A DNA stretch of 64,000 nt from Sulfurovaceae bacterium (GTDB taxonomy: Bacteria; Campylobacterota; Campylobacteria; Campylobacterales; Sulfurovaceae). This document shows, one piece after another, positions 1 to 10,900 of this stretch. Each line of letters begins with the position of its first letter. The first letter of the stretch is position 1. The position numbers were made by a program, and so were the translations under genes. The DNA lies in the NCBI GenBank assembly GCA_028715055.1, contig JAQTLE010000001.1, positions 310,001-374,000 on the forward strand, in the 5' to 3' direction. A model generated the notes under the pieces. The model saw only the letters and a list, made by a program, of their open reading frames with translations. It was not told the origin of the DNA and made no database searches.

Positions 1-379
1 ATGTTTTTGGAACAAGTGAACTAATCTGTGATGTTTGTTCGTATATATTTATCCAATTATAAATTGTTACAGCACTTAAATTGTTTTGTTTGCCAATTTC
101 TTCAACCTCGTTTCTTGAACGCTTCGTAAAAACCACATCTTTGATAATTTCATATCTTTTTTTGGCTTCTTCCCATTCTTTGTCAGAATAATTATCTATA
201 TGGTCATTGCTTAAATTTTCTGAAAGTTTTGAAGACAGTTGTTTTGTGTTCGCAATAATAATTATATTTGTAGTACAGTTTTCTAGCATTACTTCAGACA
301 AGCTCATTGTTTTAATAATTTTATATCGTTCGTTTTGATAATAGACTATAGAATCTTTTTTTAAATCAATCCTGCTCAT
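1..379 (-). CDS. tnsB: TnsB-like transposase (DDE integrase family), N-terminal part, runs off the window
   Basis: Not in the ORF track. Translating the minus strand from ATG 379-377 gives MSRIDLKKDSIVYYQNERYKIIKTMSLSEVMLEN...DKEWEEAKKRYEIIKDVVFTKRSRNEVEEIGKQNNLSAVTIYNWINIYEQTSQISSLVPKT, open to base 1. The W-A-R-I...R-V-E-I...VTIYNW-Y...SLVP pattern is typical of the TnsB/Mu-type N-terminal HTH region. It overlaps the tnsA stop by 14 nt. Confidence 0.75.
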   Translation of the reverse strand, partial: MSRIDLKKDSIVYYQNERYKIIKTMSLSEVMLENCTTNIIIIANTKQLSSKLSENLSNDHIDNYSDKEWEEAKKRYEIIKDVVFTKRSRNEVEEIGKQNNLSAVTIYNWINIYEQTSQISSLVPKT

Positions 380-1094
380 TTGTTAACCTCCGTTTATCTA
401 GTGTCGTTTTCATAGTTAGTTTTTGCTGCAAATCTATGATTTTGATGTGATTGAAAATATAGTTCCATACATATGGCAAATACTCCAATTGTTTTTGTTG
501 GTTGTCTGATAGACTTTCTATAATTTCTCTAATTGATATGCTACAAGACATATCTATGATTTTTGCTATGGCTTTTGTTTTAACATCTGATACTGGAATA
601 AAAACAAACTTATATATAAATTTTAAATTTTCCATGTATTGTTTTGAGAAATTTTGATCAGTAAATATCTCAAAATCTAAATTATATTCATTTTTAATAT
701 GTGCTCTTAAGGTTTTAATTTTTTGCTGAAGTTCAATGTCATTTTCTATTTCGTTTGCATATTTTACTTCAAACAATTTTTGACTATTAACTTTATATGT
801 TACCAATGTATCCGGTGTATATCGTCTTTTTTGGTCATCGCTATAATCATAAATCAAGCTCAGCGGCTGTTCCTCATATCTTAGTACTTGTTCATCGAAT
901 TCCAAAAACATATAAAAATCTCTTTCAAGCGTTGACTCAAATGCTATTTGAGTTTTGTTTTTATAGCTGGCAAAATAACCTGTACAAGAAATGTAACTTT
1001 TTTTAATTTTTCTGACACTCATATTAAGATTATATAGTATATTTTCTATATTTTTAATTGGTAGCATAGTTAAGTTTATTGTTGTGTTTTTCAT
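366..1094 (-). CDS. tnsA: TnsA-like heteromeric transposase endonuclease subunit
   Basis: VRKIKKSYISCTGYFASYKNKTQIAFESTLERDFYMFLEFDEQVLRYEEQPLSLIYDY...RRYTPDTLVTYKVNSQKLFEVKYANE matches the TnsA endonuclease core (E...D...ExK). The real start may be the internal ATG at 1022 (MSVRKIKKSY). Confidence 0.85.
   Translation of the reverse strand: MKNTTINLTMLPIKNIENILYNLNMSVRKIKKSYISCTGYFASYKNKTQIAFESTLERDFYMFLEFDEQVLRYEEQPLSLIYDYSDDQKRRYTPDTLVTYKVNSQKLFEVKYANEIENDIELQQKIKTLRAHIKNEYNLDFEIFTDQNFSKQYMENLKFIYKFVFIPVSDVKTKAIAKIIDMSCSISIREIIESLSDNQQKQLEYLPYVWNYIFNHIKIIDLQQKLTMKTTLDKRRLTNEQD
1068..1086 (+). repeat. TnsB-binding-site-like repeat A (agttaagtttattgttgtg)
   Basis: Shares the core [at]GTTAAGTTT-TT-TTGT with repeats B and C. 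Confidence 0.6.
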
Positions 1095-1118
1095 TTTAAT
1101 TAACCTTTTTGTTGTAAA

Positions 1119-1140
1119 TTGTTAAGTTTGTTATTGTAGA
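1119..1140 (+). repeat. TnsB-binding-site-like repeat B (ttgttaagtttgttattgtaga)
   Basis: Same core; 52 bp from repeat A (core to core). Confidence 0.65.
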
Positions 1141-1175
1141 AAAAAGATCTATTTTTAGCATTTTGTGCAATCTCC

Positions 1176-1201
1176 AGTTAAGTTTGTTCTTGTAGATGAC
1201 A
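1176..1201 (+). repeat. TnsB-binding-site-like terminal repeat C (agttaagtttgttcttgtagatgaca), inferred transposon terminus
   Basis: Same core; 56 bp from repeat B. Ends in TGACA (reverse complement 5'-TGTCATCTACAAG...), consistent with TGT...ACA Tn7-type ends. DprA-coding sequence begins immediately afterwards. Confidence 0.65.
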
Positions 1202-1714
1202 ATACTTGCTAGCGGAATTGATATATACTATCCTGCGGTAAATAAAGATTTATTAAAATCAATAGAACAACATGGCATGCTAATTAGTCAGTTTGAACCT
1301 AATTTTGCTGCAACAAATTGGAGTTTTGTTTTGAGAAATGAATTAGTTGTTGCCTTGGGAGAAGTATTGATCGTAACACAAGCACACATTGATAGTGGCT
1401 CTATGCGTTCAGTGGAATATGCACAAAAGATGGGAAAAAAAATATTTGTCCTGCCTCATAGAATAGGAGAGAGCGAAGGCACAAATAAACTTTTGCAAGA
1501 GGGTAAAGCATCCATCATATCAGATATAGAGAGTTTTGCTTCATTATACGGTAAAGCCCTAACTAATGATGCTATGGATAAAGATGATTTTTTTTATTTT
1601 TGTCAGCAAAATCCGATATTGGATGATGCTGTCGCCAAATTTGGCGAACGTATTTATGAAGCAGAACTTAGTGGTCAGATCATCATAAGCGAAGGGAGAG
1701 TTAAACTTATTTAG
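1202..1714 (+). pseudogene. dprA: DprA (DNA processing protein A), 5'-truncated C-terminal part
   Basis: ILASGIDIYYPAVNKDLLKSIEQHGMLISQFEPN...RNELVVALGEVLIVTQAHIDSGSMRSVEYAQKMGKKIFVLPHRIGESEGTNKLLQEGKASI is the C-terminal half of the DprA Rossmann domain plus tail. The conserved N-terminal half is missing. The predicted ORF start (1196) lies in transposon-end sequence. Confidence 0.85.
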
Positions 1715-7975: not shown

Positions 7976-10900
7976 ATGTATAAATTTGCCATAAATCGAC
8001 CTATTGCAACGTTGATGTATGTATTTACATTGATGATTTTCGGCTGGATCGCATTCCGTAATATGCCAATAGCCCTTTATCCTAATATTGATTTTCCAAT
8101 TGTAACGATCACGACAACTTACCCCGGAGCAGATCCAACTACCATGGAATCCCAAGTAACCGACAAGATAGAGGAGTCAGTGTCACAAATAGATGGTGTA
8201 GATATGATATCTTCTACCAGCAGTGAAGGTGTTTCAGTAGTTATGGTTAAGTTTTTGCTTGAAAGAAATATAGAAGATGCAGCAAATGACGTGCGCGACA
8301 AGGTGTCTTCCGTTATATTACCGCAAGATACTCAAAAACCGCTCGTGCGCAAGCTTGACGTGGGGGCAGCTTCTGTTGTAAATATTTTTGTAACTGCCAA
8401 AAAGAGTACTCCTCAAGAACTTATGTTGTTTGCCAATGAGAAGGTAAAACCGGCTTTGGAAAAAGTTATGGGAGTAGGCGCTATCAATATAATAGGATAT
8501 CAAGATAGAGAAATTAAAATATTACCAAATCCTTTTTTACTTACTCAACAAAATTTAAGTGTGTCTGATCTATATGGGATCTTGGCCAATGAAAATATCA
8601 AATCAGCAGGCGGAAAACTTATCAATTCTACTCAAGAATTGATTTTAAAAACTAATAGTGACGCGCTTAATGTCGAACAACTTAAGAACATAATGATAAA
8701 AGACGGTGTTCGACTAAGAGATGTTGCAACCGTTGAAGATACACTTAGTGATCCGACGAGTTTTTCATCTTATAACGGCACACAAGGTGTTATGCTTGAG
8801 ATTCAAAAGATATCAGGCGCAAACACTATAGAAGTAGTCGATTCGGTCAAAAAACGTTTACCGACATTAGAAGGACTTGCGGGCGATAAATTCGGCATAC
8901 AAGTTGTAAATGATACGTCAGCTTACATTATGCATTCACTTAAGGCAGTTGAGTTTGATTTGATATATGGATCATTTCTTGCGGCAATCATTGTTTTTGT
9001 ATTTTTGAGAAATTTTACTATAACACTTGTTTCGGCCGTATCTATACCTGTGTCTATAATTGGTACGTTTGCGTTGATGGATTATATGGGATTTGATCTC
9101 AATAAAATGACAATGATAGGACTTACCCTGGCTATTGGTATTATCATAGATGACGCTATAGTCGTAATAGAAAATATCCATAAAAAAATAGAACAAGGTA
9201 TGGATAAATTTAGAGCTTCAGTTGAAGGTGCTAAAGAAATGGCTTTTGCAATATTGGCAATATCGGCTATGTTGTTGGCCGTTTTTATACCTGTATCATT
9301 TATGGGTGGTATTGTAGGGAGATTTTTCAACTCATTTGCTATGACAGTCGGATTTGCTATCATTATTTCTTATTCAGTTGCACTTAGTTTGATACCAAGT
9401 CTTAGTGCAAGGGTATTGGATAGCAAAGAGAGCGAATTTCACAAAAAAACCGAGAAATATTTTAAATTGATCGAGAAAAAATATGAGACATTGTTAACTT
9501 CAGTGCTTAAAAATCGCAAAAAAACTCTTGTACTAGTTTTATTTATGTTTATTGTTTCTTTGTCGCTTTTCCCAAAAATTGGATTGGATTTTGTGCCTAA
9601 AGAAGATAAAAGTGAATTTGAAGTTCAAATAAAAGCACCTGCAGGTGTATCATTAGAGCAAATGAAAAAAGAATGCGATGCGGTAGAAAACGAAGTCAGA
9701 AAAGATCATAATGTACTGTATACAACTTTAGGCATCGGATACAGCACGGCTAGAGAGATCAATAAAGGCTTGATATATGTAAGGCTAAAAGAAAAAGATC
9801 AAAGAGAGATGAATCAAGAAGATATTGTTCAATCAATCAGGGATAGATTGAAACCGTTCAAAAAGAGACTCTTTATTACTGTTGCGGCTATTCCAAATAT
9901 TAAAGGAGCAGGCGTTAGTGTTCCTTATCAAATAATACTCAAGTCCGATTCTCTTGAAAGTTTATCTGTCGCCAAAAATAACCTGATTAAATATCTTTCG
10001 CAAAAAAAAGGTTTAGTCGATATTGATAGCAATCTAGACGATACCAAGCCACAGCTTACAATTACAATTTTAAGAGAGCAAGCTGCCAGATTGGGTGTGA
10101 GTGCAAAAGCAATTTCAACCCTGATCAGTGCAGCATTCTCCGGAGAAATAGAAATAGCAGAACTGGAAGAAAATGGTAAGGAGTATAATATAGTTATGCG
10201 TCTGCCGGATGATTACAGGCAATCATTGCAAGATATTAAAATGCTCCAAATCCGTTCATCAACTACAGGAGAACTAGTATTCTTGGACGGCTTGATAGAT
10301 ACTAAAATAGAAAACACAATGGCGAATATAAATCGAACCGACAGAGAAAGACAAGTTACTGTTTTTGCAGATCTTTTCGGTCTTGATCTAGGGAGTGCAG
10401 TAAGCTATACCGAAGCAAAAATCAATACTTTGTTGCCAAAAGGCGTTACTTATAGATTTGTAGGATTTGCAGAAGAAATGCAAAAAACCGGAAGTGAGTT
10501 TGGTTCAGCTTTATTTTTATCTGTTGTATTGATGTTTATTATTTTGGCAATTCTTTATGAATCACTTGTTCAGCCTTTTATTATAATGGTTGCATTGCCA
10601 TTAAGTATTACAGGAGTACTTTTGGCACTATTTTTAAGTGGACAGCATTTTAGCTTATTTGTTATGATCGGGTTCATGCTGCTCATGGGAATGGTTGGTA
10701 AGAATGCTGTACTTTTGGTAGATTTTGCAAATCACGCAGTTGATAATGGTAAAAAAATAGATGAAGCTCTTATCGAAGCAGGTGAAAAGAGATTACGTCC
10801 AATATTGATGACTACTATGGCTATGATCTTTGCAATGCTTCCTTTGGCATTTGGCGGGGATGTAGGCAGCGAAGTTAAATCACCTATGGCAATCTCTATT

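Follow-up and report, generated by a model that had tools for sequence, protein, structure and literature searches.

A Tn7-like element inserted in the competence gene dprA of a Sulfurovaceae bacterium carries an intact dprA of foreign origin

A complete Tn7-like element of 20,539 bp (C1:290663-311201, C1 being contig JAQTLE010000001.1) interrupts the competence gene dprA of a Sulfurovum-like bacterium of the Sulfurovaceae, known from a draft genome of 1.76 Mb in 23 contigs (99.97% complete). The window, i.e. the whole stretch of 64,000 nucleotides that was analysed, corresponds to C1:310001-374000, so that a window coordinate plus 310000 gives the C1 coordinate. We consider it likely that the element uses dprA as its attachment site, with TniQ as the most likely chooser of the insertion point, and that the intact foreign dprA it carries most likely replaces the gene broken by the insertion.

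The features of the element and its flanks are collected in the table below. Its termini read TGTCATATACAAG... at one end and ...CTTGTAGATGACA at the other, and ATACT stands on both flanks. The right, tnsA-side end holds three spaced repeats of 18-20 nt (starts at 1066, 1118 and 1174 of the window; offsets 9, 65 and 117), while the left end at C1:290663 opens with TGTCA and holds two abutting repeats (offsets 9 and 29). A preliminary description of the window had recognised a Tn7-like end with tnsA, the start of tnsB and a three-copy repeat array ending at 1201, and Pfam, PADLOC and the repeat analysis agree with it; the far-end repeats and the second ATACT that it foresaw are both in place. 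By its defining features as read from sequence, namely an operon of TnsA endonuclease, TnsB DDE transposase and TnsC ATPase, a TniQ/TnsD-family protein, TGT/ACA ends with several TnsB-type repeats and a 5-bp target duplication, the element is classed as Tn7-like. Its ends would be cut and joined by TnsA and TnsB, with TnsC as the regulator. The abutting-repeat end faces the 5' half of dprA; in relatives inserted at argJ and mnmG, the same end faces the 3' end of the target gene, so that tnsE and the target share one orientation. Insertion here splits the host dprA, and tnsE points the same way as the gene.

Table. Features of the Tn7-like element and the interrupted dprA (window, window coordinates; C1, contig coordinates)
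Feature	Position	Strand	Remarks
host dprA 5' half	C1:290391-290662		beyond far end of element
ATACT, second copy	C1:290658-290662		target-site duplication
tnsE (divergent)	C1:290719-292371	+	550 aa
internal intact dprA	C1:292374-293150	+	258 aa
two-partner secretion pair	C1:293333-295081 and 295090-300870	+	large protein with PT-VENN pre-toxin domain
88-aa ORF	C1:300842-301108	+	
DNA methyltransferase	C1:301364-302629	-	
two further ORFs	C1:302632-303693 and 303686-304258	-	no assigned function
SMC/RecF-like ATPase	C1:304242-306224	-	
tniQ	C1:306471-307589	-	372 aa; PF06527 4.9e-22
tnsC	C1:307586-308554	-	
tnsB	C1:308511-310379; N-terminal part at window 2..379	-	622 aa; PADLOC TnsB 1.3e-35 (full protein)
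tnsA, complete	window 366..1094 (C1:310366-311094)	-	242 aa; PF08722 (TnsA_N) 1.6e-13, PF08721 (TnsA_C) 5.2e-5
tnsA-side end of element	window 1..1201		TGTCA...TGACA termini, 5-bp duplication at both ends; continues left to C1:290663
TnsB-binding-type repeat 3	window 1068..1085	-	ACAACAATAAACTTAACT on - strand
TnsB-binding-type repeat 2	window 1120..1137	-	ACAATAACAAACTTAACA
TnsB-binding-type repeat 1	window 1176..1193	-	ACAAGAACAAACTTAACT; identical to outermost far-end repeat
terminal TGACA	window 1197..1201		
ATACT, first copy	window 1202..1206		target-site duplication
host dprA 3' half	window 1202..1714	+	PF02481 7e-26; site A insertion

As described earlier, DprA C-terminal coding sequence begins directly after the element, and its PF02481 match spans profile positions 102-210 only; the 5' half, expected from that description, was found beyond the other end. 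When the element and one ATACT were removed in silico, the two halves joined in frame (...GADNTIAIL-ASGIDIYYP...), giving an open reading frame of about 259 aa. In two congeneric genomes dprA is uninterrupted, with 85% (G068) and 81% (G185) identity over 600 bp across the site, and the copy interrupted here is vertical in the DprA tree. That the junction is an assembly artefact or a binning chimera is hardly conceivable: the genome is a draft in 23 contigs, but both junctions of the element lie within one 553-kb contig, the 5-bp duplication is exact, the empty site is perfectly in frame, and independent assemblies, some of them single-contig, show these junctions too. A complete host dprA elsewhere would have made this copy an old remnant; the only complete dprA of the genome sits inside the element. 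The earlier claim that the host has lost DprA is therefore doubtful here, since the element holds an intact, full-length dprA of foreign origin.

To see whether the insertion recurs, we searched about 400 genomes of the order, together with named GTDB genomes, for split dprA. Twelve genomes have one, and all twelve hold a related element of one clade: G000 (this genome), G183 (Sulfurospirillum sp. UBA2217), G214, G027, G261, G208, G321, G120, G399 (Sulfurimonadaceae) and the Sulfuricurvum genomes G400, G401 and G402. Both element ends are on one contig in 10 of these (on different contigs in G120 and G400), and the 5-bp duplication is perfect in every case. The insertions fall on two fixed points about 34 codons apart. 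Site A was used by five elements (duplications ATACT in G000, GTTTC in G183, GTGGC in G214, TGATT in G027 and GTTGT in G261), four at the identical base and the fifth shifted by 2 bp, and site B by seven (TCCAA in G208, TCTAA in G321, TATGG in G120, TTTGC in G399, AAAAA in G400, AAGAA in G401 and AAAAA in G402), all at the identical aligned base. Thus dprA, which the preliminary description had proposed as the attachment site from a single case, is a recurrent attachment gene of this Tn7-like clade. The rejoined native dprA is open in 12/12, with no stop in either half, suggesting recent insertion or rapid turnover. In the literature we searched, no report was found of dprA as a Tn7-like attachment site. 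A plasmid search returned only distant TniQs (best 30%); in the genomes, a contig scan with a single TniQ protein as query gave no match and one with a TnsB alignment succeeded. The elements at G183, G214 and G399, from different families, have in common a cargo pair of metallophosphoesterase-like proteins, named by eye from sequence.

The same clade also uses the 3' end of argJ, and a sister group with the same gene set uses the 3' end of mnmG across Campylobacterales (loci L046, L047, L049-L051 and L053-L057); neither hits a competence gene there. Genome G336 has two copies of one related element (L042, C1:700000-719999, and L043, C1:1662500-1682499), one immediately behind the argJ stop codon, the other next to or inside the flhF coding sequence, a pairing that would fit two targeting routes.

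The 550-aa protein at the left end gave no Pfam or PADLOC match by itself. Homologues are present in 26 of 399 genomes of the order, and 8 of 17 aligned family members match Pfam TnsE_C (PF18623; best 3.7e-4), this genome's own copy not being among the eight. In a Foldseek search with its predicted structure, the seven best PDB matches were all TnsE C-terminal domains (prob 1.00; 5d17, 9d5l). The protein is thus a divergent TnsE. Remote TnsEs near the left end are known from Tn6022-like elements (Faure et al. 2023, PMC10293859), and here TnsE might provide a second, replication-linked route. We had also considered the protein as a new target selector and dropped the idea, as its profile and fold are those of TnsE and its tree is at odds with the insertion sites. 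In four dprA elements, G027 (L153/L154), G208 (L155), G261 (L156) and G399 (L265/L266), TnsE is shortened to 341-421 aa, lacks the N-terminal part and has a long branch.

The preliminary description suggested that the element may carry a new target-selection protein. As to an additional gene, this did not hold: the universal proteins are TnsA, TnsB, TnsC, TniQ and TnsE only (TniQ was unseen in G400 alone, where the element is cut by contig ends), and neither a TnsF-like gene nor any further ORF is common to all elements. What stands is a candidate among the core proteins, since the TniQ tree alone fits the sites. In this tree the five site-A elements form one clade (100/97) and a single site-B clade is not rejected (p 0.29). 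Grouping by site is rejected by the TnsB tree (2e-4 for site A, 3e-81 for site B), and the TnsC tree rejects it for site B (0.0013) but not for site A (p 0.12). The site-B element G208 is instructive: its TnsB is 63% identical to that of G000, against 55% for the site-A elements G027 and G261, whereas its TniQ is 39% identical to that of G000, against 52% for the same two. Considering that G208 is close in TnsB, distant in TniQ and inserted at site B, tniQ seems to have been exchanged along with the target preference. Because no other core protein has a tree that agrees with the insertion points, the short TniQ itself is most likely the selector of the fixed point, site A here, perhaps by direct contact with the DNA. 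The predicted TniQ structure is of low confidence (pLDDT 69), and the fold search with this model gave weak matches to TnsD and TniQ structures at low TM-scores, which did not show a DNA-binding selector domain.

Selection of dprA by TnsE or some other factor instead of TniQ is unlikely in our view. TnsE is universal in the clade, and TniQ is short at 372 aa, and TniQs of this kind often depend on a partner selector (PMC10293859); against this, one clade per insertion site is rejected by the TnsE tree, which has some long branches (p 7e-6 for A, 9e-31 for B), the site-B Sulfuricurvum elements group in TnsE with an argJ element, and beyond TnsABC, TniQ and TnsE no gene is shared by all elements that could serve as another factor.

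The internal dprA starts 2 bp behind tnsE, in the orientation of both tnsE and the target gene, and lacks an obvious ribosome-binding site. It is 51% identical to the interrupted gene. The frame is intact, the Rossmann/SLOG domain is complete (PF02481 2.6e-52), and the protein matches H. pylori-type DprA structures (PDB 4ljr/5mll, 8e-41); its NCBIfam dprA score falls short of the curated cut-off, a score read with no native control of this phylum alongside. The best matches in the order-wide search came from six genomes of group f16/g24 (61-67%), and in the tree the copy falls among Sulfurimonadaceae DprA. The internal dprA is thus of foreign, Sulfurimonadaceae origin. Four of the 12 dprA elements carry such an intact copy, namely G000 and the three of Sulfuricurvum, where it has the same orientation and a separate origin; well-supported branches of the DprA tree force at least two origins. 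Between G401 and G402, the internal dprA with its close flanks (about 0.9 kb) is the only cargo that aligns, a short dprA remnant aside. Among the Sulfuricurvum elements, on which selection was measured, the dS of the internal dprA is 0.46, similar to the 0.38-0.63 of the tns genes, so it has travelled with the transposon, and with an omega of 0.09-0.13 it is under purifying selection. G402 also has a second, short dprA C-terminal remnant (contig C12, about 8659-8777; L261) besides the intact copy. We also dropped the idea that recoding lets the spare gene escape targeting, because its site-A peptide, NTIMVAGTGLD, equals that of the natural target in G214.

The other eight dprA elements have no spare, and searches of their genomes found no other full-length dprA of this type; ComEC is kept in 8/8 hosts tested. 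These elements appear to leave dprA-null hosts. Fourteen related elements inserted elsewhere, with both ends in hand, carry no dprA. Cargo dprA is commoner in the elements that sit in dprA (4/12 against 0/14). The difference is suggestive, with a naive p of 0.033 that becomes 0.16 when the copies are counted as two acquisitions, and is not significant with related elements counted once.

What the spare gene is for can be read in several ways. Insertion into dprA might be pure competence sabotage that stops the host from curing itself of the element by transformation, the internal dprA being incidental cargo. The eight elements without a spare, in whose genomes the searches gave no other full-length dprA of this type, and the retention of comEC agree with this, as do mobile-element insertions in comM and other competence genes (PMC4774983, PMC11472951, PMC10293859). 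We nevertheless find it quite improbable as the whole explanation: an intact dprA is present in four elements and was acquired at least two times, purifying selection kept it in Sulfuricurvum as the rest of the cargo was exchanged, chance carriage of exactly the disrupted gene on two occasions is unlikely, and the argJ- and mnmG-inserted relatives disrupt no competence gene. It is very unlikely, too, that the internal DprA serves the element instead of the host, be it by ssDNA binding or RecA loading during element transfer or as a DprA-like antitoxin. The gene does lie directly behind tnsE in G000, and DprA-like ShosA antitoxins exist, one structure (9vzo) being a weaker match to the internal DprA; however, in length and domain pattern the protein resembles an ordinary Campylobacterota DprA, the tree places it within host DprA clades, the Sulfuricurvum copies have other neighbours and do not adjoin tnsE, and the gene is absent from the 14 non-dprA elements.

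We therefore prefer replacement of the broken gene. The host dprA promoter could drive the internal dprA, which lies 2 bp behind tnsE in the same orientation, and if the foreign copy takes over, insertion into a conserved gene would cost the host little. Such rescue is not obligatory, because 8/12 dprA elements have no spare. For the clade as a whole, we lean towards a specialisation on two fixed dprA points through a short TniQ without a partner selector, in which 'target-gene repayment' evolved at least twice, a foreign intact copy of the broken gene having become a quasi-core gene under selection, and in which gene-killing and gene-replacing strategies coexist.

Among known systems, the layout is closest to Tn6022, the Tn7-like AbaR backbone in comM (Faure et al. 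2023, PMC10293859): both have TnsABC and a short TniQ (369 aa in Tn6022, 372 aa in this element) at one end and a remote, divergent TnsE on the opposite strand near the other, and both insert at a fixed conserved point within the coding sequence of a competence gene. In contrast to Tn6022, the target is dprA in 12/12 (or the argJ 3' end in relatives) and not comM, none of the 12 elements has a TnsF gene, which lies next to tniQ and selects the target in Tn6022, and four carry an intact copy of the target gene. Since the TnsF and comM features are missing, the element is not filed as Tn6022. With Tn7 (tnsABCDE, attTn7 at glmS), it shares the TnsABC core, a TniQ/TnsD-family protein, TnsE, TGT...ACA ends, the 5-bp duplication and a dedicated chromosomal site; unlike Tn7, which inserts downstream of its target, it interrupts the gene, encodes TnsE at the opposite end, and turns the abutting-repeat end to the upstream part of the target with the tns operon at the other end. 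The mnmG sister group has the same gene set and far-end TnsE, with TnsB mostly about 39-45% identical, but inserts just after the mnmG coding sequence, a safe site, and carries no dprA where both ends are in hand. Recurrent disruption of competence genes is also known from prophages and islands in comM, comYC and comFA (Croucher et al. 2016, PMC4774983), which use integrases and not Tn7 machinery, and the available part of that paper mentions no carried replacement.

Sabotage has been proposed for mobile-element insertions in comM (PMC4774983, PMC11472951). The question at stake is whether such elements enter competence genes to block curing by transformation, or because these genes are conserved and dispensable. 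A carried replacement differs from the sabotage view and is the most economical reading here, while other members of the same clade would sabotage. Having some members that leave the host dprA-null and others that bring a replacement, this one clade makes the question testable. Following comM, dprA would be the second competence gene to serve as a dedicated Tn7-like attachment site, and TniQ alone is a candidate minimal selector for fixed points within coding sequence.

The remaining cargo lies outside the window. PADLOC named no defence system in it and reported the methyltransferase only. This enzyme belongs to a four-gene operon (C1:301364-306224; L008:1364-6224) with a 353-aa protein bearing an EIKW nuclease-like motif, a 190-aa protein and the SMC/RecF-like ATPase, possibly an uncharacterised defence operon. 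The two-partner secretion locus (C1:293333-301108; L007:7333-15108) encodes a ShlB-type transporter and a TPS/haemagglutinin-repeat protein of 1926 aa with a PT-VENN pre-toxin domain. It looks like a contact-dependent inhibition locus, and the 88-aa ORF could be a candidate immunity protein.
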